A DNA stretch of 24,511 nucleotides from IMG/VR virus record IMGVR_UViG_3300025276_004081, positions 1-24,511 of that record; one strand, 5' to 3'. The translations under genes were made by a program, and so were the position numbers. Positions 9,190 through 24,511 of the stretch are shown one piece after another (the stretch's first letter is position 1; each line of letters opens with the position of its first letter). The notes below the pieces were generated by a model. That model saw only the letters and a list, made by a program, of their open reading frames with translations. It searched no databases and was not told the origin of the DNA. The stretch is from a virus.

Positions 9190-10593
9190 ATGGCATTACG
9201 GCTAAGACGAGGTACTAACGCAGAGCGTCAGCTTATTACGCCCGCACAAGGCGAGCTTATCTATACCACTGATACAAAGGCGTTATATATAGGTGACGGT
9301 TCAACTGCTGGAGGTATTGTTGTACAAGGCGGAGGAGGCGGTGGCGCTTCTACATTAAACGATTTAACTGATGTAGTAATTGGTTCACTTGCTGACGGAC
9401 AAATATTAAGTTATAACAGTGGCACTACAAAGTGGGGTCCAACTAACCTTGCAAGTATAACATTCGGTAAATTAAATCAACACACTGATGTACTATACCC
9501 GGATAACGTTCCTAATAACGGTGATATATTAATGAGTGACGGAGCAAACTGGCTTCCTCAAAACTTTACTGGCGGACAATGGAATATTGATATTGTTGGT
9601 TCAGATAGTTCACTTTTAGTTGATGGACACAATAACAAAATTACTGGTAACCTTAACGGCGACATTATTGATCCAGGCGATAACAGTACCATACTTGATA
9701 GTAGCACACGAATAATGTCTAATGTTACTACAAAACATGCTAATAATACAACAGCATATGATCCATCATTAAGAGCATTTTTTGGTGATTTTGTTGGGAA
9801 TCATCAAGGCGATGTATATTCGTCTACAATAACTGGCACTGTTAAATTATTAGATCATAGTACTGGAATATTTTACGGTGATGTATCTGGTGGTGATATT
9901 TGGAACAGTGATTCTAGTTTATTGCTAAGTGCTCATACAGGAACACTCTACGGCGATGTTGTTGGTAGTATATATGCTGACGATAGTACAACTATAGTTG
10001 ACGGGATAACCGGAAAAATAGTAGGATCTATTAAAACAACTAATGTATCTGAGTTTGATGGCGCGATTAACATTGCTAAAAATGTAGCAGCTGATCCAGT
10101 GCTTGCTTATTATTCTACTACCCATGGTGCATTTCCTACTGCGCCAATAAGTGTACAAAACATTGGCAACTCAGCAATATCAAATGAAATTGGTCTTTCT
10201 AAGTTTAGAGGAACAAATTCTGCAAGACTTGCAGTACAATCAGGTGATTCACTAGGCGGTATAGCTTGGGCAGGTGCTGATGTAGCAGGCGGCAATAGTG
10301 TTGTTGCTGGCGCTATTAGAGCTACTGTAACTGCTGCTCCTAGTGCTAACTCAATAGAAGCTGACATTACCATACTTACAAGAGATGGTGCAATTGGTAA
10401 TTATGGCGAAGCACTCCGTGTTAGACATGATAAAGTTACAACATTCAGTGGTGCAGCTAAGTTAGTAAACTATGCAGATACTACAGCAAGAGATGCTGCT
10501 ATTACTACACCAGAAACTGGAATGATGATTTACTTGACTGCTACACACAAAGCACAAGTTTATGCTAACAGTGCTTGGGTAGATTTACACTAA
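9190..10593 (+). CDS. tail-fibre/adhesin-like virion protein with Mtd-type N-terminus
   Basis: The first ~45 residues (MALRLRRGTNAERQLITPAQ...LYIGDGST) match the short N-terminal domain seen on phage fibres and on the Mtd tropism protein. Two related LNDLTDV/LNQHTDV...W modules (about 56-86 and 95-125) follow. At least five imperfect repeats of about 24-30 residues then occur (131-284; motif like GDV-GSIYADDSTTIVDG), suggesting a beta-solenoid shaft. The C-terminus (TPETGMMIYLTATHKAQVYANSAWVDLH) resembles the cap of phage fibre proteins. The protein probably binds the host surface or forms part of the fibre. ATG 9190 has AGGAG upstream and a perfect late promoter. Confidence 0.8.
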   Translation: MALRLRRGTNAERQLITPAQGELIYTTDTKALYIGDGSTAGGIVVQGGGGGGASTLNDLTDVVIGSLADGQILSYNSGTTKWGPTNLASITFGKLNQHTDVLYPDNVPNNGDILMSDGANWLPQNFTGGQWNIDIVGSDSSLLVDGHNNKITGNLNGDIIDPGDNSTILDSSTRIMSNVTTKHANNTTAYDPSLRAFFGDFVGNHQGDVYSSTITGTVKLLDHSTGIFYGDVSGGDIWNSDSSLLLSAHTGTLYGDVVGSIYADDSTTIVDGITGKIVGSIKTTNVSEFDGAINIAKNVAADPVLAYYSTTHGAFPTAPISVQNIGNSAISNEIGLSKFRGTNSARLAVQSGDSLGGIAWAGADVAGGNSVVAGAIRATVTAAPSANSIEADITILTRDGAIGNYGEALRVRHDKVTTFSGAAKLVNYADTTARDAAITTPETGMMIYLTATHKAQVYANSAWVDLH

Positions 10594-11174
10594 TTAAATA
10601 ACTGATTAGTATCATACAATTTAATAAGCTCTTCAAACTCTAAGCCAGTTGTAAACTGGCAATTAAATCTATAATCATTAGTGTCATTAACAGCATTATG
10701 ATATTCTTGTAGATTAAATATAACCGGAAGATTACGTCTATAGTCAACACTACATTGTAGATCAAATGTTGCATTATCATAGTCACGGTAATCACCAGCT
10801 GTCATTTTAAAAAAGTTTGTTGCTCCGTATGTTTCCATATCAAAAGGGTATATAGGAAAATTTATTAAAGTAACTCTTGGTGGTAGTCCTTCAACCTTAC
10901 GGTCAATGTGTATCTTTACATCTGTATAAGGTGTTTGTCCTAGTATTTCATACGAAACAGGTATTTTAAAGCGTTTTCCTACTTCATCCATAAGTTTCCT
11001 AGGAATTAAATCTTGCGGGCAAAACCAATTCCAATCATACTTGCCAAATTTGTTTTTATTATAAGTTGCGCTTCTTCCATAGTCTTCTGCATTAGCTAGA
11101 ATATTTTCGGCAAGTTTTTTACGTGTTTCCTCAGTAAAATTTATACCTTCTACATATTCAAAAAACGGTCTCAT
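10590..11174 (-). CDS. DSBH oxygenase-like protein (HxD...H)
   Basis: The last gene of the minus-strand operon, 194 aa. Residues KIHIDR hold an HxD pair (His89/Asp91). PRVTLINFPIYP follows as a core beta strand. LPVIFNLQEYHNAVND carries a distal His159, and Arg169 follows in DYRFNCQF. This order fits an Fe(II)/2-oxoglutarate oxygenase fold, although the sequence is not a textbook family member. Start and upstream stop overlap as ATGA. Its stop overlaps the stop of the + strand fibre gene by four bases, so the two transcripts converge with no visible terminator. The substrate is unknown. Confidence 0.65.
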   Translation of the reverse strand: MRPFFEYVEGINFTEETRKKLAENILANAEDYGRSATYNKNKFGKYDWNWFCPQDLIPRKLMDEVGKRFKIPVSYEILGQTPYTDVKIHIDRKVEGLPPRVTLINFPIYPFDMETYGATNFFKMTAGDYRDYDNATFDLQCSVDYRRNLPVIFNLQEYHNAVNDTNDYRFNCQFTTGLEFEELIKLYDTNQLFN

Positions 11175-11878
11175 TTAGTTTCCTTTCTACCAAGATAGTA
11201 CATTCGTCTACCCATATCTAATGCTACAATATCTCCTGTAGCAAACCAGTCGTCATAAATGCTTGTTGGACCTTTAACGTACAGCTCATGGTCTTTAATT
11301 TTCCAATCACAGTAGTATGTGCCGCCCATAATTGAATATTCAAAAGGACATCGTTCTTTTACATATTGTACTTTGTCCATATTATCAAATTCTATATTAA
11401 TAGCAATTGGGCCTATTTCACTCATTCCCCAATTTGGTTGAACGATAGCTCCTTTACTAACAAAAGCTTCTATCATTTCCCAAGTAATACAATCACTACC
11501 ACCTAGTATACGTTTACCTGTAAGATCGCAATCTACAAAGCCTTTCGTATTCATTAATGCAGTCATTTGGGCAGGTGCCAAAAATGTGTGCGTGTAATTA
11601 GTAAAGTCTTTTAGGAAAGTAAATGCATTAAATTGTTGTACTTTAAACTCTGCACCTATGCTGTATGCAGGCAATGTTTGAGCCAATAAGCCTCCTGCAT
11701 GCGTCATACGGGTCACTGTAAGCACCTTAGAGCTTCGTACAAGCTGTTGTGCATCAACTGCAACATCATTGCAAGCCTTTAAATTATCAGGCGTTCTAAG
11801 AACTATCTTAGGAGTTCCTGTAGTACCACTACTGCTTATTTCAATTCCATTTTGGAGTATATGTGCGTAATCTATCAC
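11171..11878 (-). CDS. minimal AMP-binding (ANL) adenylate-forming protein
   Basis: The protein is 235 aa, against roughly 500 for normal acyl/aryl-CoA ligases. It keeps the ATP-binding core: SSSGTTGTPK (15-24), MTHAGGL (58-64), NWGMSEIG (149-156), WFATGDI with TGD 214-216, and YYLGRKETK at the very end. It lacks the usual N-terminal subdomain (~150 residues before the P-loop) and the whole C-terminal lid with the catalytic Lys. It could activate a carboxylate as an acyl-AMP, but may need a partner or use a different acceptor. No carrier protein or condensation domain is seen. The start is GTG, overlapping the GMP reductase stop as GTGA, with AAGGT upstream. Confidence 0.8.
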   Translation of the reverse strand: MIDYAHILQNGIEISSSGTTGTPKIVLRTPDNLKACNDVAVDAQQLVRSSKVLTVTRMTHAGGLLAQTLPAYSIGAEFKVQQFNAFTFLKDFTNYTHTFLAPAQMTALMNTKGFVDCDLTGKRILGGSDCITWEMIEAFVSKGAIVQPNWGMSEIGPIAINIEFDNMDKVQYVKERCPFEYSIMGGTYYCDWKIKDHELYVKGPTSIYDDWFATGDIVALDMGRRMYYLGRKETK

Positions 11879-12918
11879 TGCTCGTACCTTTCCAAACTTC
11901 GATTAATAGTGTTATTGACTCTTACAAATTGCGATGTCTTAAACGCCATTTTAATATCCTTAACCCCTATATATGTACATAGACTACGTAAACCACCCTG
12001 TACCTGGCTTAAAACCTGATTAAGCCGCCCTTTAACCGGTATTAACAAGTCTCGACCCTCATTAGGGCGATATTCTTGTTCTGTAGGAGAAGTAAGATCG
12101 TACATTTTAGTACTGCCTAATCCATAAAAGTTAATATATTTTTTGCCATCTATTTCAACTACATTGTCACATTCTTCACATTTAGAAACCATACCTGCTA
12201 TCATTACAATTTCTGCGCCTGCACAAATTGCTTTACACACATCACCAGCAGTAACACATCCTCCATCACTAATAACTTTAGCACCGGCTAATGCTGCTTC
12301 TTTTGCACAATCAATAACTGCACTTACTTGTGGAATGCCTACACCTACTTCAGAACGTGTTTTGCATGCAGCTCCGCTGCCAACTCCAACTTTAATGTAA
12401 TCCGCGCCTGCTGCTACTAACTCTTTGATTAACTCTGGTGTAGCTACATTTCCTGCACATATTTGAGCATGCGGAAATTGTTTTCTATATTCTGCAATAG
12501 TACGTTTTATTCCTTCAACATTAGCATACACATTAGCAATGTCTACGTTAATCATTCCAATATCAGGATAAGCTGAGAATACTTCTATAGTTTTTTTGAT
12601 ATCCCACGGCTGTACTCCGCTGGTAATTGCAATGTATCGCCTATCTTCTACATTAGCTAAATTAAATAAATGTTCTGCTGTTGTATATTCTTTGTGTATA
12701 AATGTTAATACATGCATACCTGTTGCTATGTTAGCAATTTTATATGTACCAGTACTAATCATGTTTGAAATAGCTACTGGGCAAGTTGTAGTATCTAGCC
12801 AATCAATTTCAATGTTAACACTTTTACGTGTAAGGGTTTCAGTTCCTGCTCTTGGCTCTATTAATACATCACTAAAATCTAGTTTAGGTGTACTATTAAT
12901 GTCTTTAATTTTTACCAT
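11875..12918 (-). CDS. guaC: GMP reductase (IMPDH/GMPR family)
   Basis: A 347-residue TIM-barrel enzyme without CBS domains, close in layout to GMP reductase, which deaminates GMP to IMP with NADPH. The N-terminal PKLDFSDVLIEPR matches the family start. GAGNV-type strand AGNVAT (155-160) and KVGVGSGAACKTRSEVGVG carry the nucleophilic Cys185 and the Thr two residues later that distinguishes reductases. ISDGG (216-220) is the phosphate-binding loop, and EYRPNEGRDLLIPVKGR and GGLRSLCTYIG match GMPR C-terminal motifs. The start overlaps the upstream stop as TAATG. In this operon it may supply IMP/AMP for an AT-rich genome or act on a nucleotide intermediate; both are inference. Confidence 0.85.
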   Translation of the reverse strand: MVKIKDINSTPKLDFSDVLIEPRAGTETLTRKSVNIEIDWLDTTTCPVAISNMISTGTYKIANIATGMHVLTFIHKEYTTAEHLFNLANVEDRRYIAITSGVQPWDIKKTIEVFSAYPDIGMINVDIANVYANVEGIKRTIAEYRKQFPHAQICAGNVATPELIKELVAAGADYIKVGVGSGAACKTRSEVGVGIPQVSAVIDCAKEAALAGAKVISDGGCVTAGDVCKAICAGAEIVMIAGMVSKCEECDNVVEIDGKKYINFYGLGSTKMYDLTSPTEQEYRPNEGRDLLIPVKGRLNQVLSQVQGGLRSLCTYIGVKDIKMAFKTSQFVRVNNTINRSLERYEQ

Positions 12919-13862
12919 TAGTATCCACTACCATCTTCGTTTAGTTTTAAGTGTTCGTAGAATGGAGCAATCTTCCATTCTGGTGTAATACGTCCTCGAC
13001 GAGTGCTACCTGGATCAGGTATGCCTACTTCATTATCGGTATCCCAATTTGTTAGTTTTACCCAACGACCTTGGTATCTAAATTTTGGATCTTGTGTTTG
13101 ATCCAACGGAAATTCAATTCCGCACACTTCTGGTGCGCCGGCATATCTATGGTTAGTTTTATAAAAATCCCATATATACTTTTCAGGCAAATTAAATTGT
13201 TCTGAACATAACTTCACTAAATCTTCTAGCTTCATATTTTCAGTTTCGTCTTCCATGTAACGCCCGATTTGCCCAACGTTCTTAATACGCATAGTAATGT
13301 TTTGTACATTATGTTCTTTAATTAAATCCATCATACGTTTTGGTGCGCCTTCATTAACACCTTTAACAATAATTGTTCCAACGTCTATGCTAAATTTGTT
13401 AGCAATATTTTTAAAAGCTTTTAATTTTTTCTTTGCACAAGGCATGTCATCAATTTCTTGATACCACTCATTTTTGTCTACACCATTCATACTAATGTAA
13501 ACATGCTGTAGTCCAGTGTCCTGTAGTTTTTTAACATAGCTTTCACTAGATAGTCTTAGACCATTTGTTATCAATATACACAGATGTCCTGCACCAAGTG
13601 CAGCTTTAATAAATTCCACACAATGCGGGTGTAGCGTAGGCTCTGCTCCTACTATACGTATCATACATTTTCCTTTAATACGCTTTACGAATTCTTTAAA
13701 CTTCTCTAACTGCATATCAGGTGGAGTTCTAGTTGGTAAGTAACAGTTTTTACACTCCATATTACACCTATGAGTAATATCAACAAAAATATCTTGGAAG
13801 GTATTATCCTCTGGTTCTTGCTCATAGTAGTTTAGTGTTGCAAGATCAATTGTTTTAGTCAT
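12918..13862 (-). CDS. radical SAM enzyme (314 aa)
   Basis: It carries the radical-SAM cluster motif CNMECKNC (Cys33, Cys37, Cys40), a GGEP-equivalent VGAEPTLHP (71-79) and the LITNGL strand near 98, all within the first ~110 residues. The enzyme would bind a [4Fe-4S] cluster and cleave S-adenosylmethionine to a 5'-deoxyadenosyl radical. The C-terminal ~100 residues contain two scattered Cys but no clear SPASM-type cluster. They include an odd GRWVKLTNWDTDNEVGIPDPG segment. The gene is sandwiched between a B12-binding-like radical SAM enzyme and GMP reductase, coupled to both by ATGA/TAATG overlaps. The substrate is unknown. Confidence 0.85.
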   Translation of the reverse strand: MTKTIDLATLNYYEQEPEDNTFQDIFVDITHRCNMECKNCYLPTRTPPDMQLEKFKEFVKRIKGKCMIRIVGAEPTLHPHCVEFIKAALGAGHLCILITNGLRLSSESYVKKLQDTGLQHVYISMNGVDKNEWYQEIDDMPCAKKKLKAFKNIANKFSIDVGTIIVKGVNEGAPKRMMDLIKEHNVQNITMRIKNVGQIGRYMEDETENMKLEDLVKLCSEQFNLPEKYIWDFYKTNHRYAGAPEVCGIEFPLDQTQDPKFRYQGRWVKLTNWDTDNEVGIPDPGSTRRGRITPEWKIAPFYEHLKLNEDGSGY

Positions 13863-15355
13863 TTATATATTTCCTGTTTTTTTGCTTTGTATTGCTCAAT
13901 AGCTTGTATATATAAACTATTTAAGTTCTTTTCTAGGTAAACCTCTCGAGCTGTGAACTCAAGTAATTCTGCATGCGGAAATTTTGATAAATGTTCTGTC
14001 ATATCAAAATTAAATAACTTCTGCTTCATAAAATATTTGTCCATATACATACTAGCAAATTCTGTTGCTTGTTTAAAGTTTGACCATTCTGACTCCCAAA
14101 CCATAATTCTATTATCTAATTTGTTATTTTGTTTACCTATACCTTTTAAATTATTATATCCTTCTTTAACTGCCCAAGCAGATATTTCTGGATCTGTTGA
14201 TTCATAGTAACCAAATTTTTCTGAGTCAACACTAAAATCACTTTGTGTAGTATTATCTTTATCTGTACTAATATGTAGTCCCCAATAAAAATAACTTTCC
14301 CAATTTTCGTCTAACCATTTTAAGCTTTCGTACCAATGCTCAACTGGTTCATGTGGCAATCCTGCAATCATTCCGCAAGTTCCACGGTATACACCAATGC
14401 GGTCTTGAAACTCTTTTCTAATCCAAAGTAAGCCTGCTTTAATTTTACTCGGGTGCATGCCCTTGCCAATTGCCTTTGCGGCTGCTGGATGTAAAGTTTC
14501 TATACCGTAGAAATGCATCCAGCACCTTGCTCTGCATAATAACTCGACCTGATGCGGGCGAGCTATAACTAAGTCTAGTCTAATAAAACAACTAAAATTA
14601 GGTTCAAACGGCAATCGCTCTACTACGTTGGCAAGTTTTTCTATTTTAGTATCTCTATCGTTAAACGTATCATCGCTAATAATATAATTTGTAGTTCCAT
14701 AACGATTGTAGTTACTCATTAGTTCATTATAGATATCATCTTCGTGCCTACTATAATCTTCTTTTACGCCTAAGAAAGCATAGTTACAGTACTTACATTT
14801 GAATTTACACCCACGTGATAGTTCAAGTGTAAGTGCTTCTTCTGATAATATAAAATCATTATCACTGTACTCAACATTAAACTTATCAATGTTTAATCCA
14901 GTATATGAATTATTAGCATCAACTAGATAGCTATCTGGTGCCCATTCAGGATATTTGCCTACCGGTTTTTCGGCTTGATTAAACATCCAATCTAAAACAG
15001 GCTTTAATGCATATTCGCTATATCCAAATACCATAGCATCAGCACCATAATCTATTTGATACGGCTTAGGTCCGCCCATAAGTATTTTTGCATTAGGGTA
15101 ATGCTTTTTTATGTATGCAATCTTTTCGACAATCATATCATCTTGCATCCATAGATTACTAATACCAAACAAGTCCACTTCGAATGGCAAGTTATCAATA
15201 AACTCTTTTATTTCTTCATTGGACCAACGTGTTATCCAATCTAATACTTCGACTGTCCAACCGACACTACGCATCATGTCAGCAATTTTATATGCTCCCA
15301 TGGTGCGCCTTGTAATTTGGTCACCGCTGTCATTAAAAAAGATTGCTGTTTGCAT
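13859..15355 (-). CDS. B12-binding-type radical SAM protein (498 aa)
   Basis: I start at ATG 15355, which overlaps the upstream TAA by one base and has GCGAGA upstream; an ATG at 15385 would lie inside the neighbour. Residues 1-~125 resemble the Rossmann cobalamin-binding domain of class B radical SAM enzymes (AYKIADMMRSVGWTVEVLD, DLFGISNLW, NAKILMGGPKP). The DxHxxG cobalamin loop is not visible, so B12 binding is uncertain. Radical SAM cysteines are 183/187/190 in LELSRGCKFKCKYCNY. Further on come a YIISDDTFN strand and GTCGMIAGLPHEP. Such enzymes often methylate unactivated carbons or rearrange rings. The C-terminal ~130 residues are helical and unassigned. Confidence 0.85.
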   Translation of the reverse strand: MQTAIFFNDSGDQITRRTMGAYKIADMMRSVGWTVEVLDWITRWSNEEIKEFIDNLPFEVDLFGISNLWMQDDMIVEKIAYIKKHYPNAKILMGGPKPYQIDYGADAMVFGYSEYALKPVLDWMFNQAEKPVGKYPEWAPDSYLVDANNSYTGLNIDKFNVEYSDNDFILSEEALTLELSRGCKFKCKYCNYAFLGVKEDYSRHEDDIYNELMSNYNRYGTTNYIISDDTFNDRDTKIEKLANVVERLPFEPNFSCFIRLDLVIARPHQVELLCRARCWMHFYGIETLHPAAAKAIGKGMHPSKIKAGLLWIRKEFQDRIGVYRGTCGMIAGLPHEPVEHWYESLKWLDENWESYFYWGLHISTDKDNTTQSDFSVDSEKFGYYESTDPEISAWAVKEGYNNLKGIGKQNNKLDNRIMVWESEWSNFKQATEFASMYMDKYFMKQKLFNFDMTEHLSKFPHAELLEFTAREVYLEKNLNSLYIQAIEQYKAKKQEIYK

Positions 15356-15996
15356 TAACGTTTTCTCGCTACCATATTCCAACAAGGGTACGGTCCCGGT
15401 GCTGTTTTAATCTTTGGCAGTTCGTCTGGTACTAATTCTTGTATGTCAAAATTATTAAACCATCTTGTCATTTCAGCTAATTCAAACTGTGGCGGTGTAT
15501 ATTGTTCTGTTCCCATAGGTGACTCTTTTACTAATCTTCCGGATTGATTAATATATACTCCGTTTTCATTTAATGAATTGTTTACGTTATTAATGTATAT
15601 GTCTCTGTATTCTGGTGGCACAAAGTGAAATAGGCCAAAATCTATTATTACATCAAATTTTCCACTAGGCCATGTTTCTACTAAACTAGCACAAGTAAAG
15701 GTACAATTTTTATTATTGTGTGATATTGCTTCATTAATAGCATCTTGTGATATATCAAAACCAGTTACATCAAATCCCGCATTTCCTAAAAACAAACTGT
15801 TACGGCCACTGCCACATCCTATATCTAGTACACTTCCGGTTTCTGGAAAGTACTTTGCAAATGTTGTTAATAGTCGCGCAGGGATATATCCCCATGCAGG
15901 GTTTTTATCTTTATAAATGTTATTCCAAAACTCTGGCGTATTAACTTCATAAGTTTCTAAAGTCTTATTAACAGGATATTGATTAAATTCTTTCAA
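15355..15996 (-). CDS. class I SAM-dependent methyltransferase
   Basis: I choose TTG at 15996, six bases after a clear GAGG ribosome site and 14 bases inside the upstream gene. A second TTG at 16017 has no such site. The 213-residue product has the SAM-binding motif VLDIGCGSGRNSLFLG (about 57-72), a FDIS acidic loop after strand 2, FDVIIDFGLFHFVPPEYR (motif IV/post-motif) and a C-terminal GPYPCWNMVARKR. The fold matches small-molecule methyltransferases (TehB/UbiE-like). The segment before motif I, PEFWNNIYKDKNPAWGY, is typical of thiol/small-molecule members. The substrate is unknown. It sits just upstream of the B12-type radical SAM gene. Confidence 0.85.
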   Translation of the reverse strand: MKEFNQYPVNKTLETYEVNTPEFWNNIYKDKNPAWGYIPARLLTTFAKYFPETGSVLDIGCGSGRNSLFLGNAGFDVTGFDISQDAINEAISHNNKNCTFTCASLVETWPSGKFDVIIDFGLFHFVPPEYRDIYINNVNNSLNENGVYINQSGRLVKESPMGTEQYTPPQFELAEMTRWFNNFDIQELVPDELPKIKTAPGPYPCWNMVARKR

Positions 15997-16555
15997 AATC
16001 GGCCTCAGCTGTTTCAAATGTATCTTGGTATTCCCAACTAAGCATAACCCTTATTGAGTCTGATGTGTTTATAATATTATGCGGCTTTGATGTGTTAACT
16101 AAAGTTGGTACAGTTAGTATATGATCAAACAAATTGTCTGCATCTTTTATATAAGTTAAGTATTCATTAGATTTCCATTCCCTGTAAATTTCTCCAAAAG
16201 ACCCTTCAATTGAATCTACTTCTTGTCCTCCAGTAAAGAAACGTGTAACTTTTGTTTGGTCACAATTGAATACAGGAATGTTTACAGCTGATACTCTATG
16301 TTTATCAATATGAGTTAACCAACTTCCTTTGCTACACTTCATTAACTTTAATGCAGGTGCTAGTTTTGGATATCGATTTCTAATCATCCTTAATGTTATA
16401 TTATCTTCTGCACTAATAACCATTTGATCAGTAAAATTGTGTAATGCAAATGGATCAGGCATGTTATACCATTCTTCAGTTAGCAGTTTAGAGGCTAAAT
16501 CTTTAACAAAAGATAAATCAATGAAACTAGGTAATTCTTTTACATATCCTTTCAT
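15983..16555 (-). CDS. DSBH oxygenase-like protein, intact metal ligands
   Basis: A 190-residue protein paralogous to the next one upstream (16552-17103). Both start with a KxLPxFID segment, share the same helical N-terminus (PKLAPALKLMKCSKGSW here) and have the same core strands. Here the Fe(II)/2OG site is complete: His82/Asp84 (LTHIDKHR), distal His159 (SKPHNIIN), and Arg169 (DSIRVMLSWEY). It probably hydroxylates an unknown substrate. Start and upstream stop overlap as ATGA. Its tail overlaps the methyltransferase gene and supplies that gene's ribosome site. Confidence 0.72.
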   Translation of the reverse strand: MKGYVKELPSFIDLSFVKDLASKLLTEEWYNMPDPFALHNFTDQMVISAEDNITLRMIRNRYPKLAPALKLMKCSKGSWLTHIDKHRVSAVNIPVFNCDQTKVTRFFTGGQEVDSIEGSFGEIYREWKSNEYLTYIKDADNLFDHILTVPTLVNTSKPHNIINTSDSIRVMLSWEYQDTFETAEADFERI

Positions 16556-17103
16556 TCAAAATCCTCAAAATTTCCGCGGTACTTCCATAGCACAAAAAGA
16601 CTAAGCTCGTCTGAACTATTAACAAATTGTTTAGGCACACTAGCATCTATTATAGTAGTGTCATTAAGCAAATGGGTGTAATCCTTAGTTCCACCTGTAT
16701 GATACTGTGCCCAAGGGTTAGTTTCCCAGTATCCAAACTGTGCGCCTATATAATCTTCAACACCTTCGACTAGAGCAGAATCTTTAAAGAAGCTTATTGA
16801 TAGTTTAGAATTTTCTATTGGAATACAAAGTGTGCCTCCATTGTCGTTAGGAGTTGTACTAATTGGCCAAGTTCCGTTTGGGCCCATTTTTAATATTTTT
16901 AAATAGTTATCAAATTTAGGATATGCTGTTTTTATTACTTGCAATTGTTCATAATCATCTACCATAATTTTATAATGGTCTGTAAATGATTGAAGAGCTT
17001 CTGCATCTGTAAATTGTCTCCAATTATCATTTACTAATTCGTTAATAATGTCTTTTAAAAATGATGTATCAATAAATTTAGGCAATGTCTTTGCATATTT
17101 CAT
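16552..17103 (-). CDS. DSBH oxygenase paralogue lacking metal ligands
   Basis: This 183-residue sister of the 15983-16555 product keeps the overall sequence pattern (LPKFIDTSFLKDIINELV, YPKFDNYLKILKMGPNGTW, CIPIENSK, FVNSSDELSLFVLWKY). Every active-site ligand is replaced: the HxD positions read Ser82-Thr-Thr84, distal His becomes Gln159, and the Arg becomes Leu/Ser. The reading frame is intact and has a strong AGGAG ribosome site, so it is probably a functional non-catalytic protein, for example a partner, inhibitor or binding protein of its active sister. It is not an obvious pseudogene. Confidence 0.75.
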   Translation of the reverse strand: MKYAKTLPKFIDTSFLKDIINELVNDNWRQFTDAEALQSFTDHYKIMVDDYEQLQVIKTAYPKFDNYLKILKMGPNGTWPISTTPNDNGGTLCIPIENSKLSISFFKDSALVEGVEDYIGAQFGYWETNPWAQYHTGGTKDYTHLLNDTTIIDASVPKQFVNSSDELSLFVLWKYRGNFEDFE

Positions 17104-17627
17104 AATATTACTCCTTTTAAGTGCGTATCGTATATATCACAAACTTCACTGTATTGCTGTTCAAAACATAACTGGAATACTATCCTTGTATTATCATCTT
17201 GTGTTAAATGAACATTATGATTATATCCGCCTGTATTTAAAATTGCTCCTAGCCCATCATAGTTTACATTACACATAAATTTTTCATTGTCATCATAAAA
17301 ATATGTTGAACCGCAATCAGTAGTTAATGGAAAACTAATAACAGTTTGTCTAGGCATATATAGGTTTTCATATTCATTATACCTATTTTTATCCTTGTGT
17401 ATTTTACTGCCCGATTCAGATACACGTAACATTTGACATACACAATCTAACCCTGTAGTATTAAATTTTTGTATAGTACTAGGCAATTTAAAAAAACTTA
17501 TCTTATAACTTATATCTACAAATGCTCCTGGAGCAGTTGCTATTTCTATTAACTCCTCTTTTGTATTTTCCGACAGCATATACTTAACTTGTCGAAAATA
17601 TGGATCATAAGTTTGTAGCATATTCAT
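17100..17627 (-). CDS. DSBH oxygenase-like protein
   Basis: I choose ATG 17627 (MNMLQTYDPYFRQ); ATG 17621 is also possible. The frame extends upstream only inside the aminotransferase gene, which it overlaps by about 20 bases. The metal site would be His77/Asp79 (GSKIHKDKNR), with core strand RQTVISFPLTTDCGSTYFY, distal His137 or His140 (GGYNHNVHLTQ) and Arg148 (DNTRIVFQLCF). The pattern is that of Fe(II)/2OG oxygenases. It is similar in size to its two downstream neighbours, so three such genes stand in a row. The substrate is unknown. Confidence 0.7.
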   Translation of the reverse strand: MNMLQTYDPYFRQVKYMLSENTKEELIEIATAPGAFVDISYKISFFKLPSTIQKFNTTGLDCVCQMLRVSESGSKIHKDKNRYNEYENLYMPRQTVISFPLTTDCGSTYFYDDNEKFMCNVNYDGLGAILNTGGYNHNVHLTQDDNTRIVFQLCFEQQYSEVCDIYDTHLKGVIL

Positions 17628-18441
17628 CTTTTTTCTTTTCGTATTCTTCAATAAGCAGTTGTGTAACAGGTCCTGAATGTTGTGTTGCTGTAACGCCGCC
17701 ACTGGAACTTGCTATAAAAACTTCGTCTGCACTTATAAACTTTTCTTTTCTAATAGGACATCTAATAAACGATACGTTGTTTTCGTTTGCAATATTTTCA
17801 ACAACACTCATTGTAATACCTTTAAGAACATTTCTGTCTGCTGTGTAGATAACTCCGTTATCTACAATACCTACATTAAATCCAGGACCTTCAGTAATGC
17901 AGCCGTCGATATCAACTAAAACTGTTGTATCAAACCCTTTAGGACGATTACGTTGACTCATAGTTAATTCTATCCAAGCCATATTTTTAAATTCTTGTCC
18001 GTAGTAATCATCGTTAACTCTATTAGTATATTCATCTAGTACAATTGATACTACAGGTTTTTTACCAATTGGATAACTTGGTTTAATATACATAGCAAAA
18101 TTTATAGGACAGTTCTCTATATCTCTTGGATTGCCACTTGGCGGATATCCGCGCCAAACTAAAAACCATACAAATGCATTTTCAATTGTATTACGTTTAG
18201 CAAGTTCTTTAATAATTTCTAAAGTATCTACGTCTGGTAGTTCTAGTCCATAACGTTCTGCACTATTCTTAAAACGCTGTAAGTGTTTTTCATAACAAAA
18301 TGCTTTACCGTTATACACTGGCATAACATCATACGTAGCATCACAATGAATAAATCCAAAGTCTAACACACTAGGACCTATTTCTCCTAGCGGCTTATAT
18401 TCGCCATTTTTATATGCTACTAAGTCTAATACGTTAGTCAT
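17605..18441 (-). CDS. class IV PLP-dependent aminotransferase (BCAT/D-amino-acid type)
   Basis: The 278-residue protein has fold-type IV features: GPSVLDFGFIHCDATYDVMPVYNG at the start, KHLQRFKNSAERYGLELP (Arg56 region binding phosphate), WRGYPPSGNPRD, catalytic Lys152 (GQEFKNMAWIE), DGCITEGPGFNVGIV (Glu184 region contacting PLP nitrogen) and NVLKGITMSVVENIA. It would transfer an amino group between an amino acid and a keto acid, or deaminate/lyse (ADC lyase is a relative). ATG 18441 is used rather than TTG 18444, with AAGG upstream, overlapping the small membrane gene by 8 bases. Rare in phages, it implies a biosynthetic step needing an amine. Confidence 0.85.
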   Translation of the reverse strand: MTNVLDLVAYKNGEYKPLGEIGPSVLDFGFIHCDATYDVMPVYNGKAFCYEKHLQRFKNSAERYGLELPDVDTLEIIKELAKRNTIENAFVWFLVWRGYPPSGNPRDIENCPINFAMYIKPSYPIGKKPVVSIVLDEYTNRVNDDYYGQEFKNMAWIELTMSQRNRPKGFDTTVLVDIDGCITEGPGFNVGIVDNGVIYTADRNVLKGITMSVVENIANENNVSFIRCPIRKEKFISADEVFIASSSGGVTATQHSGPVTQLLIEEYEKKKDEYATNL

Positions 18442-18691
18442 CAAAATGTACCTTTTTTAATTGTGGATCATCAGGTAATTTTTGTTTAAGTTGTTTTAGT
18501 CGATTAATGCGCCATTCTAATAACTTAAAATCAAGAACCCAAGGAAAAATTGCATGTATTAAACTTCCAATACAAACAAATAATAAAAAGAAGAATTCAC
18601 TTATTGCAAGTTTAAAGTGCCAGAAATAACCAGCGTTAGGTTTGCCGGCTTTTATTTTTGCTTCTTGTAGATGTGTTTTATTAAACCACAT
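18434..18691 (-). CDS. small single-pass membrane protein
   Basis: An 85-residue protein with one strong hydrophobic stretch (about 27-50, ISEFFFLLFVCIGSLIHAIF) followed by PWVLDFKLLEWRINRLKQLKQKL, a basic amphipathic helix. It resembles small DUF6356-like membrane proteins (HAxFP at the end of the membrane segment), but the match is by eye. It would sit in the inner membrane with the basic helix inside. Its place amid enzymes suggests it could anchor the pathway to the membrane, which is speculative. AAGGT precedes the ATG. Confidence 0.7.
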   Translation of the reverse strand: MWFNKTHLQEAKIKAGKPNAGYFWHFKLAISEFFFLLFVCIGSLIHAIFPWVLDFKLLEWRINRLKQLKQKLPDDPQLKKVHFDD

Positions 18692-19235
18692 ACGTACCTT
18701 CCAATCTATTTCTTCTTGTAGAATATTCTTCTATGTTTAATCTCCATACAGTTTGTTTAGTATAGTATAACATCTGATCACCCATATTGTCAAGTATTTT
18801 CTGCTTTGCTAGCAATCCCATTAGTCTATGATTACGTGCGGCTTTTCCATTTGAATGTTCATGATCAATGTTAGTTGTAAGATATAACTTATTACTAGGA
18901 CACCATTCTATAAACTTTGGTATTATTTCACGTTGTGTAATACTATTCCAATCTCCCTTGCCTAACCCTTTAAACGTATCAGTTTGAGGCAACTCGCATC
19001 CTCTAAATAATATTCTCCATGCGTCTTTAGAAACTTCCGGCAAAGGATGACACCCTGCTACTGCTATAATATTATCTTCTTTGATTGCACAAAAATATTC
19101 ACCTTGTTCTTTACACCAATCAAATTTCATTGCTTTTAAACTAGCGTTATTTTCATATCCTAATTTTTTTGCTGCTTTACAAAAAGTTTCAAGCTTAGGA
19201 ACTAACTCATTTGTAATAGTTGTTATAAGCATCAT
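18681..19235 (-). CDS. GNAT-like acetyltransferase-fold phage protein
   Basis: A 184-residue protein with the strand order of a GNAT fold: EYFCAIKEDNIIAVAGCHPLPE (beta strands 2-3), WRILFRGCEL, LYLTTNIDHEHSNGKAARNHRLM (position of the acetyl-CoA-binding loop, although the R/QxxGxG/A motif is not clear) and DQMLYYTKQTVWRLN at the C-terminus. It may transfer an acyl group, or be a catalytically silent phage member of the fold. Two ATGs in tandem (19235, 19232) overlap the upstream stop. The second has the better distance to AAAGG. Assignment is tentative. Confidence 0.55.
   Translation of the reverse strand: MMLITTITNELVPKLETFCKAAKKLGYENNASLKAMKFDWCKEQGEYFCAIKEDNIIAVAGCHPLPEVSKDAWRILFRGCELPQTDTFKGLGKGDWNSITQREIIPKFIEWCPSNKLYLTTNIDHEHSNGKAARNHRLMGLLAKQKILDNMGDQMLYYTKQTVWRLNIEEYSTRRNRLEGTYVV
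18764..18793 (-). promoter_or_regulatory. possible internal sigma70-like promoter (minus strand)
   Basis: On the minus strand TTGACA (18793-18788) and TATACT (18769-18764) are separated by 18 bases, about 75 bases before the membrane-protein ATG. It lies wholly inside the GNAT-like gene. Chance in AT-rich DNA cannot be excluded. Confidence 0.3.
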
Positions 19236-19738
19236 TTACCTTTAACGCTAAACACTACATGCACCCTGTCTTCATTACGCGACAGCATTAAAGCAGAATG
19301 ATTTCTAGTTGCATCAAGATAATATAAATGCCCTAATTTATCCATTTGATGCATAGAATTATCTTCATTCATAAACCAACTATCTTTATTTGTAATAATT
19401 GGAATATGAAATCTAAAACTATCATCATAATGAAAAGATAAAGCTCTATTACTAGTGTGCATTCGCATAAATCTAACTCTGCCTACGTGCCAATCTTTTT
19501 TAATATATTCGTATGCATCTTCAACTACTGTTCCTTTAAAAATAGAATGTAGCCGATCCCATTTCCATTCGTCATCCGGCAAATAATTAAATATACTTCC
19601 TATACCGTCTTTTAAATCTGAGGATCCTCTAGATGTAATCATTATTTGATTACTACTATTATCAAGTGACTTATATACCTCTAATAGCCCTTGAGCATCA
19701 AATTGTGTATTTGTTTTATAAAGTTGTTCTATGGACAT
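19232..19738 (-). CDS. aspartyl/asparaginyl beta-hydroxylase-like oxygenase
   Basis: The 168-residue protein matches the Asp/Asn beta-hydroxylase (PF05118-like) core. RVRFMRMHTSNRALSFHYDD contains His103/Asp105, FRFHIPIITNKDSWFM is the conserved HxPI strand, GHLYYLDATRNHSALM has distal His147, and DRVHVVFSV has Arg158. Such enzymes use Fe(II) and 2-oxoglutarate to hydroxylate side chains, and smaller relatives act on free metabolites. The assignment to this branch is clearer than for its neighbours. It is coupled upstream to the SDR gene (10-base overlap) and downstream to the GNAT-like gene. Confidence 0.82.
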   Translation of the reverse strand: MSIEQLYKTNTQFDAQGLLEVYKSLDNSSNQIMITSRGSSDLKDGIGSIFNYLPDDEWKWDRLHSIFKGTVVEDAYEYIKKDWHVGRVRFMRMHTSNRALSFHYDDSFRFHIPIITNKDSWFMNEDNSMHQMDKLGHLYYLDATRNHSALMLSRNEDRVHVVFSVKGK

Positions 19739-20169
19739 ACTGTAATTTCTTTCACCCTATGTGGCTGTTGTAAAACCCAATCAATAATACCAACACAATA
19801 TTCAATACTCATCTTTTTATCAGTTACATCAGCTACCCTGGGCGAGTCAAAATATCCAAATCTTACATTAGTAGTTTCAATACCTTGATAGAATAGCTGT
19901 TCGTTTGCTTTATCTAATGCAAATTTTTCTACTTGATATATGTGCGGTTGTTTTTTAGATTGATCAGGACTATTAGAACCAATATTAATTATTCTTTTAT
20001 TAAGCTCTGCAGCACGGTATAATAACTTACTTTGACTAAATTCGCCGTACTCGTGTTTACAATTAATAAAAATATCACATTCTTCTAGACTATTACAATT
20101 ACCATACTTTTCTTGCAAGGCTGCTCCAAGCCCTCTCCGAGTTCCGGTAATATAAAATAAATTAGTCAT
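19729..20169 (-). CDS. reduced short-chain dehydrogenase (SDR)
   Basis: Only 146 residues against about 250 for classical SDRs, but the key parts remain: NAD(P)-binding TGTRRGLG (8-15), the INIGS strand with candidate Ser65, YQVEK (YxxxK; Tyr78, Lys82) and a following helix FALDKANEQL. After that comes TTNVRFGYFDSPRV, like the post-catalytic proline loop. The central strands and helices between the cofactor motif and the catalytic Ser are shortened. It would reduce or oxidise a carbonyl/alcohol with NAD(P)H. The catalytic residues are kept, so it is more likely a miniature enzyme than a broken one. Confidence 0.8.
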   Translation of the reverse strand: MTNLFYITGTRRGLGAALQEKYGNCNSLEECDIFINCKHEYGEFSQSKLLYRAAELNKRIINIGSNSPDQSKKQPHIYQVEKFALDKANEQLFYQGIETTNVRFGYFDSPRVADVTDKKMSIEYCVGIIDWVLQQPHRVKEITVCP

Positions 20170-21001
20170 AAAATCGTATATCCATTAGCTCACTTGTAGT
20201 TAGAGCGTTATAGTAGTACTTATCTGGTTGATCTTTGAAAAGTACCCCTAATGGAATATTACCGAAACTCTCTTTAGGATAGTCTGGATCAATTCCGCCT
20301 TCTTGCATCCAATCTCGAACTCTGTTTATAGTTTGTTTTTGGTATGGAAATTTAAGTGATTCAAATTCAATAAAAAAACTAGGTGAATAGTGTGTTAAAG
20401 GTACTGCTTCTTTTGGAGATCTTTTAGACTTGTATGCTTTAATATAGTCTTCGCCAACTGCATTGTAATTTAAGTAAAGTGTATATGGATATCTATACGG
20501 AGTAAACAACTTGTAGTCTTCGTCTTTAAACTCAATTTTATCTACATTAGGTACACTTGTTTTAGGTGATACCATTCTAAATCGTGTGCGTGGTGAAGTT
20601 TTCCATTCTAATTTAGTTTTAGATTCTGCTTGATGAATGTAATCGTTTAGTAAATCTCTATCTTTTCTTGTATTACAGGACCAGTGTTGTTTAGCAAGAT
20701 CTTCATATATATGATGTATGTCGCTAAGATCTTGCATAGTAAAATGATCACGACCGCTTTGCCTTGTATACTTGTCTGGTATTGTGTTATCTTTATGATT
20801 GTTAATAACATCAATTATATCAAATAATTTTTCGAAAGGATCTGTTTGATCTATACCTTGCGATGATAATTCATATACATGCTTTGACGGGACCAGAGTG
20901 TTGGTCTCTTTAATCATATTCCACCACCGCTTAACAAAATCATTATCGTTTAAATGGCAATCAAATATTGCACCATTTTTAAATATAAGATTCAGTCGCA
21001 T
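20162..21001 (-). CDS. unknown phage protein (about 279 aa)
   Basis: I use ATG 21001 (RLNLIFKNGAIFDCHLND); GTG 21007 is also possible, with GGAG upstream of both. The protein has a helical middle (DLSDIHHIYEDLAKQHWSCN) and an aromatic-rich C-terminal half (YRYPYTLYLNYNAVG, THYSPSFFIEFESLKFPYQ, YYYNALTTSELMDI). No motif that I can name is present. The C-terminal pattern could be a beta-sandwich binding domain. It overlaps the stand-alone SPASM-like gene, so it may belong to the same pathway. Confidence 0.7.
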   Translation of the reverse strand: MRLNLIFKNGAIFDCHLNDNDFVKRWWNMIKETNTLVPSKHVYELSSQGIDQTDPFEKLFDIIDVINNHKDNTIPDKYTRQSGRDHFTMQDLSDIHHIYEDLAKQHWSCNTRKDRDLLNDYIHQAESKTKLEWKTSPRTRFRMVSPKTSVPNVDKIEFKDEDYKLFTPYRYPYTLYLNYNAVGEDYIKAYKSKRSPKEAVPLTHYSPSFFIEFESLKFPYQKQTINRVRDWMQEGGIDPDYPKESFGNIPLGVLFKDQPDKYYYNALTTSELMDIRFYD

Positions 21002-21347
21002 CGCCACCTAACTCCTGTACTTGTGCTTTAACTTTTTGTTTAAGATCTATCTTTGCTCTTGTACTTTTATAACGAGTACTTTTAATGTCAGCAACGCAAG
21101 TACATCTATCTTTATAACACGAAATAAAACTTTTTGGAAGATTCCATACTTTATCGTCAACATGGCCTATTTTTCCTCCTACTTTACACGTGCCTCTAAA
21201 CATGCTTCCGTCTTGACGTATTTCAATACTTTCTAATCCTATGCCGCACATCCACCCTTCAAAATTAACTTGTTCATCTTTAACTAAATCGTTTGCCCAG
21301 CGGCTAGAAGGGTTACCTTCTTTATCATAGGTAATAATATCAGTCAT
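20979..21347 (-). CDS. stand-alone SPASM-like cysteine-cluster protein
   Basis: A 122-residue protein without a radical SAM barrel. It has five cysteines in the spacing of an auxiliary-cluster (SPASM/twitch-like) domain: Cys34 (GWMCGIGLESIEI), Cys54 (FRGTCKVGGKIGHV), then Cys77, Cys82 and Cys84 (SCYKDRCTCVADI). The same pattern forms the N-terminus of the product of 22032-22970 (Cys30, 50, 72, 77, 79). It probably binds an Fe-S cluster and works with the radical SAM protein encoded just upstream. A strong GGAGG precedes ATG 21347. The C-terminal 35 residues are basic and helical. Confidence 0.78.
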   Translation of the reverse strand: MTDIITYDKEGNPSSRWANDLVKDEQVNFEGWMCGIGLESIEIRQDGSMFRGTCKVGGKIGHVDDKVWNLPKSFISCYKDRCTCVADIKSTRYKSTRAKIDLKQKVKAQVQELGGDATESYI

Positions 21348-22035
21348 CGTATTCCTCCAATACTACATTTCTATATTCGTTGTCATTTAAAAAACGTACC
21401 TGTTCTTTGGTATATATTGGAGTATAACCTTTTTTGCCTGGATCAACTTGGCTTTTAGGACGAATCCGTTTCATATGATAAGAAATATCATGCTCTATAC
21501 AATATTTAACCATAGTAACTGCTGGTGGCCAATATTCAGGCTCCATCATTAAATTTAGACTCATACTTTTACCTTTATAAATTTTACAGTAATCACTTAC
21601 TGCTTTCATTTTAGGCAAAAACGTATCTGTTTCAACATATTCAAAATGACTGCTAAACTGTATTACATCAATAACACTTATTAATTGTACTAGAAATTCT
21701 TTTGTTCTACTACCATTAGTGTTTAGTCCTATCATAAATCTTCCATCTTCTTTTAGCCATCGGCAAAATTTTAAAAAATTAGGATTAACTGTAGGCTCAC
21801 CACCTGTAAACCAAATACGTATTTTTTTGTGTTCAGGTATATTTGCTTTCATTTTTTCTGCAATGCCAATTAAATTAGACAAGCTTCTATGAGGACTTTT
21901 CATATCATGTAAGCTATCTGCACAATAGCTACAATCATAGTTACACCGCTTGCCAATGTTCCAATGTATATAAAACATATTATGAGGCCTATCACTTTGT
22001 ATAGCAATTATATCCTTTGGTTCTACAAAACTCAA
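21340..22035 (-). CDS. radical SAM enzyme (231 aa), TTG start
   Basis: It starts at TTG 22035, overlapping the upstream TGA as TTGA, with AAGGA at good distance; no useful ATG exists nearby. The [4Fe-4S]/SAM motif is WNIGKRCNYDCSYC (Cys31, Cys35, Cys38), followed by FTGGEPT (76-82) and a GLNTNGS strand. It is a clear paralogue of the C-terminal part of the 22032-22970 product (shared WNIGKRCNYDCSYC, SPH, GGEPTVNP). It has no auxiliary-cluster domain of its own. The next gene encodes that domain separately. The substrate is unknown. Confidence 0.87.
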   Translation of the reverse strand: MSFVEPKDIIAIQSDRPHNMFYIHWNIGKRCNYDCSYCADSLHDMKSPHRSLSNLIGIAEKMKANIPEHKKIRIWFTGGEPTVNPNFLKFCRWLKEDGRFMIGLNTNGSRTKEFLVQLISVIDVIQFSSHFEYVETDTFLPKMKAVSDYCKIYKGKSMSLNLMMEPEYWPPAVTMVKYCIEHDISYHMKRIRPKSQVDPGKKGYTPIYTKEQVRFLNDNEYRNVVLEEYDD

Positions 22036-22970
22036 CGTTTTTTCCTTATAAATTCTAGCTCTTCTTCTGTGTAATCTAGTATTTTATTGTTGTTATTTTT
22101 ATCTACTAACGGTTCAATGCTTATATTATAGTTGCCATTGCTTTGTGGTAAGGTATCAAAAAAGTCTTTACACGTATGTAATTGTCCTGGGGATAACATA
22201 AACTTTATAGTACAGTAACCTTGTTTAATTTTACTTAGTTTTTCTATCTTTTTAGCAAGCTTCTCAGGTTGGTAAAATTCGGTATGTACACTTATATGTA
22301 GACCTCCTGCTTTTTGTAATTTTGCAAGTTTGCTAAAGCTACCAGTACCGTTTGTGTTAGTAATTACTTTTGTACCATGTTCTACAGCATAGCTAACAAT
22401 ATCGTAATAGTCGGGATTAACTGTAGGTTCTCCCCCTGTAAATGTTATTTGTAATAATTGGCCGTTTGCATGTTTGTATATTTTATCAAATGCTGTTTTA
22501 AACGATTTTATTCCTAAGTGCGGACTAAAGTTGTCATGTACAGCCGGTGGACAATAACTGCAATCATAATTACATCGTTTACCTATATTCCAATTAATTG
22601 CAAACTCAGGATTATGAGTTTGTATAGATAACATTTCTTCTTTACTATAAGTTGGTGCAGAAAAATCTACTAAATGCTTTATGCTTTTAAAATCTTTTAT
22701 ATCTTTTGATTTAAGAATATTTAAGTCTGCTGAACAATAACAACTCTCAGCAGGACATATCATAGGTTGTGTTGGTAAAGTAAAGTCTGTAAAAACATTT
22801 CCATATTGTCCACTATGTCTACACACGTTACCAAATACGTTTCCTAAACTACTAATCCATAAAAATTCTAGGCCGGCGCCGCAATGCCAACCTTTAAAAT
22901 TATTATAGGAAGTTTTTGCTTGGGCATGGTTACTTTTACGTATGCCTTCTGTTGTGTTTACTACGAGCAT
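22032..22970 (-). CDS. SPASM-like + radical SAM fusion (312 aa)
   Basis: Domain order is reversed from usual. Residues 28-83 form a SPASM-like cysteine domain (Cys30, 50, 72, 77, 79; GWHCGAGLE...CYCSADL). The radical SAM barrel follows, with NWNIGKRCNYDCSYC (Cys133, 137, 140), FTGGEPTVNP (177-186) and the ITNTNGTG strand. The barrel ends at about 290, shorter than a full (beta/alpha)6 barrel with appendages. The ATG at 22970 lies 3 bases after the upstream stop, the only non-overlapping junction in the operon. It probably catalyses a radical modification, perhaps of a peptide or sugar-nucleotide. No precursor peptide gene is evident. Confidence 0.86.
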   Translation of the reverse strand: MLVVNTTEGIRKSNHAQAKTSYNNFKGWHCGAGLEFLWISSLGNVFGNVCRHSGQYGNVFTDFTLPTQPMICPAESCYCSADLNILKSKDIKDFKSIKHLVDFSAPTYSKEEMLSIQTHNPEFAINWNIGKRCNYDCSYCPPAVHDNFSPHLGIKSFKTAFDKIYKHANGQLLQITFTGGEPTVNPDYYDIVSYAVEHGTKVITNTNGTGSFSKLAKLQKAGGLHISVHTEFYQPEKLAKKIEKLSKIKQGYCTIKFMLSPGQLHTCKDFFDTLPQSNGNYNISIEPLVDKNNNNKILDYTEEELEFIRKKR

Positions 22971-22973
22971 AAG

Positions 22974-23663
22974 TCACTTGTATCCAATTTTCATAAATCT
23001 TGTATATTCTGGAAGGTATAGCTCTCCTTCATATAGTACACGAGTCATTGGAGTAGTAATACTAAACTCTTCTATTGTTTTACTACAGTTGACATGATCT
23101 AATATTTCTTCATAATTATTGCTTTGTAAGATTACTAATGTGCCTTTAGGTATTACACTGTACCAACTATAAAAGTTTTCAATATGTTCGCAACTAGTAT
23201 TGATAATAGTATCAGCCGTATCTACTAACTCTACTTCGCTACCATTTGATCGAGCTGTTACATAGGGAAATCCTGTGTATTGTAAATCATGTATGTCTAA
23301 AGTTGATGCTTTAAACTTCCATTCGTCACGTACTTGATCTTTGTTAATAGCTTCAGCAATTGGGGCGCAGGTCTTGTCAATATCAAAGCTTCTAATCTTT
23401 TCTATATCTAACTTAGAATTAAACAACATTGCTGCAAGAGTTGCCCACCATCCTCCGCATAAAAATACTGTTCCTAACTCTACGTTTGACTCTTCTAATA
23501 ATTCAATTAACCATCGTTTGCTTTTGAGCTGTCCCCAACTAACTGCATCAGTTAAATCTACATCATAATGATCAACAGCATTTGTTAAATTTTTAAATAA
23601 AGGATTGCCCGTTAATGCATACATTCTTCCGAATACATCTTTATCGTCTTGCCACTCAATCAT
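22974..23663 (-). CDS. methyltransferase-like (Rossmann) phage protein
   Basis: A 229-residue protein with a SAM-methyltransferase-like topology. VELGTVFLCGGWWATLAAML (about 61-80) sits at the glycine-rich loop, IRSFDIDKTCAPIAEAIN (about 90-107) at the acidic ribose-binding strand, ADTIINTSCEHIENFYSW at the post-motif IV position, and GTLVILQSNNYEE at strand 5. The glycine loop CGGW is unlike the canonical GxGxG, so catalysis is uncertain. The N-terminus (RMYALTGNPLFKNLTNAVDHYD, SWGQLKSKRW) is characteristic of a phage-specific group. Coupled upstream to the glycosyltransferase-like gene. Confidence 0.7.
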   Translation of the reverse strand: MIEWQDDKDVFGRMYALTGNPLFKNLTNAVDHYDVDLTDAVSWGQLKSKRWLIELLEESNVELGTVFLCGGWWATLAAMLFNSKLDIEKIRSFDIDKTCAPIAEAINKDQVRDEWKFKASTLDIHDLQYTGFPYVTARSNGSEVELVDTADTIINTSCEHIENFYSWYSVIPKGTLVILQSNNYEEILDHVNCSKTIEEFSITTPMTRVLYEGELYLPEYTRFMKIGYK

Positions 23664-24330
23664 TAAACTTCTCCATTAGCCAATCAAAGTCGTTTATTTT
23701 ACGTAAGTCTTCCGGAGAATGTTTATGTGTTTCCCCGTATGCTTTACCTTCTATAGCTCCACGTATAGCATATTCTCCAAACGGATTTGTTTTTCCTCTA
23801 GTACACCATGTTTCTAAACGCTTTGTTGTTTCCTCATCCTTTTGTCTATCAATAACTTTACTAGATAATTTAGTACATTCTCTAAATGCACCTTTCCATG
23901 TTTCAAACGGATTTGTATTAAATGCTGTTGTGTTTGCTAGCTCTTGTACTGCTTTAAACTTTCCACTAATACTAGTTGTCATATCAGGCTTTGACATATC
24001 CATATTTATTGTAAGTTTACGTGGTAATAACTTAACGCCGCCGTATCCATAAACTAGGGCATTAACTGCATTCCTTGCTCTCCAAACATAGACAGTATCT
24101 AATTGGTGGTCTGGTACTTCGTAATCAAAATTAAAAGTGTCAACTATGTGTGCATCACCATCAACAATCCAAACCATTTTAGTAAAACATTTTTTGGCAG
24201 CAGCTACATGTGCCTGATGTATTCCTTTTACTCCATGAACACGCTTTGCTAAAGGAAATCTTGCTTTTAGTTTAGCATAGTTTTCATCTGCGTTAGGTTC
24301 TTGATATGATATGAATACAATGTCGTACAT
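23656..24330 (-). CDS. glycosyltransferase-like (GT-A) phage protein
   Basis: A 224-residue protein opening with DIVFISYQEPNADENYAKLKARFP, a nucleotide-binding start of GT-A type. It then reads IHQAHVAAAKKC and MVWIVDGDAHIVD with Asp57-Gly-Asp59, the metal-binding DxD motif that holds the nucleotide-sugar diphosphate. VYVWRARNAVNALVYGYGGVKLLP is a likely acceptor-side segment. It may transfer a sugar to a surface glycan, DNA or protein. The fold call is moderately sure; the donor and acceptor are unknown. The start overlaps the upstream stop as TAATG. Confidence 0.68.
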   Translation of the reverse strand: MYDIVFISYQEPNADENYAKLKARFPLAKRVHGVKGIHQAHVAAAKKCFTKMVWIVDGDAHIVDTFNFDYEVPDHQLDTVYVWRARNAVNALVYGYGGVKLLPRKLTINMDMSKPDMTTSISGKFKAVQELANTTAFNTNPFETWKGAFRECTKLSSKVIDRQKDEETTKRLETWCTRGKTNPFGEYAIRGAIEGKAYGETHKHSPEDLRKINDFDWLMEKFND

Positions 24331-24511
24331 TATTTTCTAGTATTTCCGTAATGTATTACTGTACACTTTGGATTAACATATGAGCGCCACGGATCAACTA
24401 CTATACTACCATCAGGTATATCGCAATACAATTTGTCTGCACTAGTTTTACCGGTATACTTGTATGTAGTACTGGCGCTGTGTGCTAATAAAAATACACA
24501 AGGTACGTCTG
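24330..24511 (-). CDS. C-terminal end of an unidentified protein (partial)
   Basis: The minus frame is open from the right edge to TAA at 24332-24330 (about 59 residues) and shares one base with the ATG of the next gene. Visible segments are CVFLLAHSAST, SADKLYCDIPDGSIVVDPWR and the end PKCTVIHYGNTRK. The IVVDPWR strand hints at a Rossmann-type fold such as a nucleotide-sugar enzyme, but the fragment is too short for a call. It shows that the operon continues beyond the window. Confidence 0.6.
   Translation of the reverse strand, partial: DVPCVFLLAHSASTTYKYTGKTSADKLYCDIPDGSIVVDPWRSYVNPKCTVIHYGNTRK

Follow-up and report, generated by a model that had tools for sequence, protein, structure and literature searches.

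Must the auxiliary cluster of a twitch- or SPASM-type radical SAM (rSAM) enzyme be covalently tied to its barrel, and how do electrons return to the SAM cluster? These open questions are touched by three adjoining genes in a metagenomic virus contig, the 24,511-base virus record IMGVR_UViG_3300025276_004081 (hereafter, the window), in which an auxiliary-type domain (S) and an rSAM barrel (R) occur as S-R in one chain (gene A), as a barrel alone (gene B) and as an S domain alone (gene C):

22032–22970, minus strand: gene A, S domain then rSAM barrel (S-R), 312 aa (open reading frame; Pfam Radical_SAM, 5.8e-15, at aa 128–242)
22707–22970, minus strand: N-terminal twitch-like S domain of A, aa 1–88, with Cys 30, 50, 72, 77 and 79 (alignment, profile and Cys spacing)
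22551–22574, minus strand: CX3CX2C SAM-cluster motif of A, CNYDCSYC, aa 133–140 (sequence)
21340–22035, minus strand: gene B, rSAM barrel alone, 231 aa, with a TTG start overlapping the stop of A in TTGA (open reading frame; Pfam Radical_SAM, 3.2e-12)
21922–21945, minus strand: CX3CX2C SAM-cluster motif of B, CNYDCSYC, aa 31–38 (sequence)
20979–21347, minus strand: gene C, twitch-like S domain alone, 122 aa, with Cys 34, 54, 77, 82 and 84 (open reading frame, profile and alignment with A)
21340–21358, minus strand: B/C junction, with Shine-Dalgarno GGAGG at 21354–21358, the ATG of C at 21345–21347 and the TGA of B at 21340–21342 (sequence)

ORF calling placed the three genes consecutively and codirectionally on the minus strand with overlapping ends, and homology bore out the S-R, R, S succession proposed in a first-pass annotation of this DNA. 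The barrels of A and B are related (BLASTP E = 1e-25) and have WNIGKRCNYDCSYC and GGEPTVNP in common, as that annotation had reported. Both show the CX3CX2C and GGE motifs and a partial barrel matching PF04055 that define the rSAM superfamily, and retention of these two motifs predicts SAM cleavage by A and by B alike. The S domain of A matches the family profile at E = 2e-36, the N terminus of A aligns with C at E = 1e-12, and a six-frame search with A recovers C at 6.1e-11. Cysteine steps of 20-22-5-2 in A and 20-23-5-2 in C, likewise as first described, give both domains the pattern C-x19-C-x21/22-C-x4-C-x-C.

We surveyed relatives with a DNA pattern for the barrel motif, WNIG-x-RCN-(Y/F)-x-C-x-YC, which gathered 90-odd viral loci, in turn searched with profiles built from C and B, and gave one Bdellovibrionales contig that served as the entry point to bacterial members. 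Viral contigs scanned with the single protein A, using peptides that were poorly conserved, yielded nothing, and neither did a genome scan with the fused alignment. ORFs with an S domain number 172 when duplicates are included: 125 R-S, 27 S alone and 20 S-R; the usual viral form is the textbook order, with S after the barrel in one chain. The bacterial search covered one phylum, Bdellovibrionota, in which 49 of 241 genomes match at 1e-10, many via the barrel alone; the virus contigs are fragments.

What kind of domain is S? Across 117 distinct homologous domains, cysteines 1–4 are kept in 116, 113, 114 and 114 and the fifth, which is serine in part of the family, in 93; judged by this conservation, the pattern is not a chance one. 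Family spacing is mostly C-19-C-22-C-4-C-1-C, with 18-30-4-1 in some clades, and the twitch domain of SkfB, with C333, C351 and a CX4CXC ending in C385/C387, reads 17-28-4-1 (PMC6231123). Compared with SkfB, the S domains of A and C show the cysteine order of a twitch domain, namely a Cys, a hairpin with Gly, a Cys and a Cys group, with four putative ligands for one cluster (PMC6231123). The seven-Cys motif of a strict two-cluster SPASM domain was not found, there being at most five conserved cysteines, four of them strictly so. Four strictly conserved cysteines within a single five-Cys set fit a one-cluster twitch domain better than a two-cluster SPASM domain. The earlier label 'SPASM-like' thus holds in that S is homologous to the auxiliary domain at the C terminus of rSAM enzymes, as fused relatives and the SkfB alignment indicate, but twitch is the better name.

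Profile searches against SPASM and twitch families gave mixed results. A profile of 40 fused proteins aligns SkfB from barrel to twitch end (positions 21–316 of 322, E = 1.4e-8). Pfam SPASM (PF13186), the sole Pfam family to touch many S domains, does so weakly (11 of 31, best E 0.0044, C not among them), and no unrelated zinc or redox family emerged. Scavenger-receptor Cys-rich matches of the S-only profile (best E 7e-6) proved spurious, being sums of weak repeats with a best single-domain E of ~7. Searching the PDB with the S-only profile returned no rSAM enzyme, and a profile of barrel end plus S returned no match; because S-only profiles reach no solved twitch domain, the case for twitch is built on the profile of fused proteins, the arrangement of cysteines and the weak Pfam SPASM matches. 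AF2 single-chain models of A (pLDDT 92.4, pTM 0.89) and of a fused relative from locus L009 (pLDDT 92.8, pTM 0.89) arrange the S-domain strands in the same order around the cysteines. The nearest solved structure to both is BlsE, although Foldseek scores did not separate twitch enzymes from viperin, which is without an auxiliary domain, so TM-scores were not taken as proof of a twitch fold. An S domain that is structural or zinc-binding, without an auxiliary Fe–S cluster, would be compatible with the weakness of the Pfam matches and the Ser at the fifth position, but the full-length SkfB alignment, the SkfB-like CX4CXC and the order of secondary structure make it improbable. The evidence for a twitch-like domain with one putative cluster site is good but not final.

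Is the boundary between B and C a true gene fission? The best outside matches of C are the C-terminal domains of fused R-S homologs (~1e-21), and the split point is the interdomain linker, where the C leader WANDLVK matches the fused linker HANDIIK; judged by these alignments, B plus C is an R-S enzyme split at its linker. The S-R, R, S layout appears again in six distinct viral sequences (L007/L031, L011/L051/L060, L025, L026, L059 and L073), a second viral split clade comprises L005, L008, L015, L024, L063 and L074, and R and S adjoin in four Bdellovibrionota loci (L111, L112, L113 and L128). Throughout the viral and bacterial split pairs, R precedes S on the same strand. A 213-aa gene with a Pfam QueC match lies between the halves in L007/L031, and R and S stand ~1 kb apart in L014. 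An assembly or sequencing error that split one ordinary gene, of which the first-pass annotation had named a sequencing frameshift as its possible undoing, would be a natural suspicion in a metagenomic virus contig, but the same layout in bacterial genomes and in independent contigs, whose B proteins are 54–72% identical to that of the window, excludes it for practical purposes, and the start signals of C and the gene between the halves contradict it further. The fission of R and S is real and conserved in viruses and Bdellovibrionota.

At the junction itself, GGAGG lies six bases ahead of the ATG of C, which overlaps the stop of B (coding overlap of 8 nt, ATGACTGA), an arrangement that suggests translational coupling of the two genes. 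Similar start signals are kept in L025, L059 and L073, and bacterial overlaps read ATGA in L112 and L113 and GTGA in L111, in a frame relation unlike that of the viral pairs. By eye, L005, L008, L063 and L074 have no ATG near the start of S and apparently use TTG where L015 has ATG. Programmed ribosomal frameshifting could in principle join B and C into an ordinary R-S protein, given open frames that overlap by ~20 nt in the window and a frame offset of 1 in most viral pairs; we regard it as very improbable, because C has its own Shine-Dalgarno sequence and ATG, the offset is 2 in three bacterial pairs, and R and S are separated altogether in L007/L031 and L014.

These sequence features lead us to think that B and C probably constitute one twitch-type rSAM enzyme in two polypeptides, with A as a permuted paralog that works in cis. 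B would act as the barrel that cleaves SAM, and C would supply the auxiliary-cluster domain located C-terminal to the barrel in fused relatives. The two would be made in tandem through the overlapping stop and start and would reassemble with the cluster of C at the open end of the barrel of B, as the fused homologs, fixed order and coupled starts lead one to expect. In known twitch enzymes the auxiliary cluster takes up a substrate electron or binds substrate (PMC6231123). The cluster of C may do either: accept the electron of the substrate radical, a role proposed for BtrN and anSME, or hold the substrate, which is its part in MoaA. A would perform the same chemistry as B plus C in one chain. 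What the sequences show is the homology, the layouts with their conservation, and the start signals; assembly in trans, cluster content, catalysis and substrate are features that we infer.

The main competing explanation is that C is a free auxiliary Fe–S protein, an electron shuttle serving several rSAM enzymes (A, B and the N_Twi type described below). Several rSAM enzymes occur per cluster, and PapB and QueE provide a demonstrated case of electrons passing between separate rSAM enzymes (PMC10470005). Among seven viral pairs, the pairwise identities of B are uncorrelated with those of C (r = −0.16), which keeps a free shuttle open. We nevertheless consider it unlikely, as S-only genes consistently sit immediately behind an R-only gene and in most cases overlap it, and the fused form puts S on the same class of barrel.

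A dedicated B–C enzyme would resemble SkfB, BtrN, SpeY and MoaA in pairing an rSAM barrel with a one-cluster auxiliary domain, and SkfB in particular in its five-Cys C..C..CX4CXC set and the full-length profile match. In those four enzymes, however, the domain is C-terminal in one chain, whereas A of the window carries it at the N terminus and C has it as a protein of its own, and A and B could not accommodate the N-terminal, peptide-binding RRE domain of SkfB. A further likeness is the GeoRSP system, in which what is by name a SPASM protein, TIGR04304 GeoRSP_SPASM (a model of 293 positions), is catalogued with a separate rSAM protein, TIGR04303 GeoRSP_rSAM; GeoRSP_SPASM is not known to carry a functional barrel. 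A search of one related genome gave no match to TIGR04304, and TIGR04302 proved to be a family of the PqqD type. CP21_027 of Campylobacter phage CP21 is a remote R-S relative, fused in the ordinary order (21% identity over 94%). The 12.8 kb of CP21 covered contained no S-R protein. In that phage, L127 4096–12817 holds rSAM genes in succession, some of which are only partial, and a number of its open frames include distant S domains. Campylobacter phages carry many rSAM genes, and CP220 has 11 rSAM proteins (PMC2853527). In the part of the literature covered, we found no description of a conserved split twitch enzyme or of a permuted twin beside one.

How does the permuted protein A relate to the split pair? 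In the main tree of 67 barrels, which excludes L011_12431, a second and highly divergent S-R protein, all 19 S-R proteins (8 viral, 11 bacterial) group together in one clade (98/95), consistent with a single permutation event, and B belongs to another, seven-member clade made up of viral split R proteins (100/100). Because A and B lie in separate well-supported clades, and that of A spans bacteria and viruses, they are old paralogs rather than products of local duplication. S would have become N-terminal once in an older paralog, before viral and bacterial members separated. The first-pass annotation had read the module as duplication followed by fission and re-fusion: the fission is conserved, a local or recent duplication of A and B is contradicted, and re-fusion is possible. 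L113, a split bacterial locus, groups with the fused L016 and L006 types (95/90), which would fit a re-fusion origin for the fused clade beside split bacterial members. Several independent fissions are possible too, as the tree gives no clear deeper branching, and the S-domain tree had too few alignment positions for its deep branches. A highly divergent second S-R protein, 336 aa long, is encoded in the same clusters at L011 12431–13438, L051 4355–5362 and L065 711–1718.

The S domain was also claimed to break with the usual order by preceding the barrel or standing apart; both placements are real and conserved, but N-terminal auxiliary placement is already known from NF033640 (N_Twi_rSAM), in which, as in A, the auxiliary domain is N-terminal to the barrel. 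A is not a member of that family: it scores 33.9 bits against a cut-off of 170, through the barrel only (E 1.8e-8), the bacterial S-R relative L125 has no match at 1e-15, and the N-terminal Cys pattern of the NF033640 type, C..CC..CxxC, is unlike that of A. Proteins that belong to NF033640, or nearly so, lie beside the three-gene module in L007 and L026. All 7 neighbouring rSAM proteins tested match NF033640 (E 2.8e-45 to 6e-114), one of them (L007) just under the cut-off, and Pfam SPASM falls within residues 16–121, ahead of the barrel, in 5 of 9 neighbours tested. An extra rSAM gene stands directly before S-R at L007 3332–4555, L011 11289–12437, L025 7275–8420, L026 7283–8461, L059 2802–3974 and L073 6971–8128, NF033640-like where tested (L007 and L026); the window is without one.

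The genes that flank the module are themselves conserved:

20162–21007, minus strand: 281-aa protein directly after C, kept beside S in L007, L011, L025, L026, L031, L060 and L073
22974–23663, minus strand: methyltransferase-like by eye, with no Pfam match, conserved upstream in relatives (neighbour comparison)
23656–24330, minus strand: conserved neighbour in three-gene and fused-type loci (neighbour comparison)
24330–24509, minus strand: fragment homologous to L013, L025 and L026 genes (neighbour comparison)

The L025 and L026 homologs of the last fragment belong to a neighbour set with two proteins matching Pfam UDP-glucose/GDP-mannose dehydrogenase, in a tally that does not name proteins. 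By Pfam tally, viral neighbours include other rSAM proteins, nucleotide-sugar dehydrogenase, aminotransferases, methyltransferases and Asp/Asn hydroxylase-like and QueC-like proteins, and bacterial neighbours include glycosyltransferases, SDR and GHMP kinases among many singletons. This context suggests that what is modified is an activated sugar or another small molecule, and together with BlsE as top structural match it hints at sugar chemistry, a tentative reading that we doubt somewhat more than we believe. The QueC-like PP-loop gene inserted between R and S lies at L007 1080–1718, and QueC matches 3 of 112 viral neighbour proteins. Elsewhere on the minus strand of the window, Pfam identifies a 314-aa rSAM barrel protein (12918–13862) and a 508-aa rSAM protein with a B12-binding domain (13859–15385). 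The surrounding region, 10590–21007, is dense and biosynthetic-looking, with an IMPDH-like gene, an AMP-binding fragment, a methyltransferase, an aminotransferase-like gene (17605–18444) and, by eye, several 2OG-oxygenase/Asp-hydroxylase-like folds. By eye, the protein of L128 5886–7694 (minus strand) resembles a NodU-type carbamoyltransferase; its gene neighbours are two N_Twi-like rSAM genes and the split R and S genes of that bacterial locus.

Found again in related phages and in Bdellovibrionota, both layouts represent a natural rearrangement. At about even confidence, we propose a split rSAM enzyme of phages and Bdellovibrionota that receives its auxiliary Fe–S cluster in trans from a translationally coupled subunit, with a once-permuted paralog in the same operon. 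Phages and Bdellovibrionota have this rSAM family in common, as parts of multi-enzyme clusters. In a two-protein version, the cluster domain can be omitted, titrated, exchanged or mutated with no need to re-engineer a fused enzyme, and the permuted sister A offers a natural control. If the fused clade beside the split bacterial members represents re-fusion, the family would record the fission, permutation and re-fusion of one enzyme.
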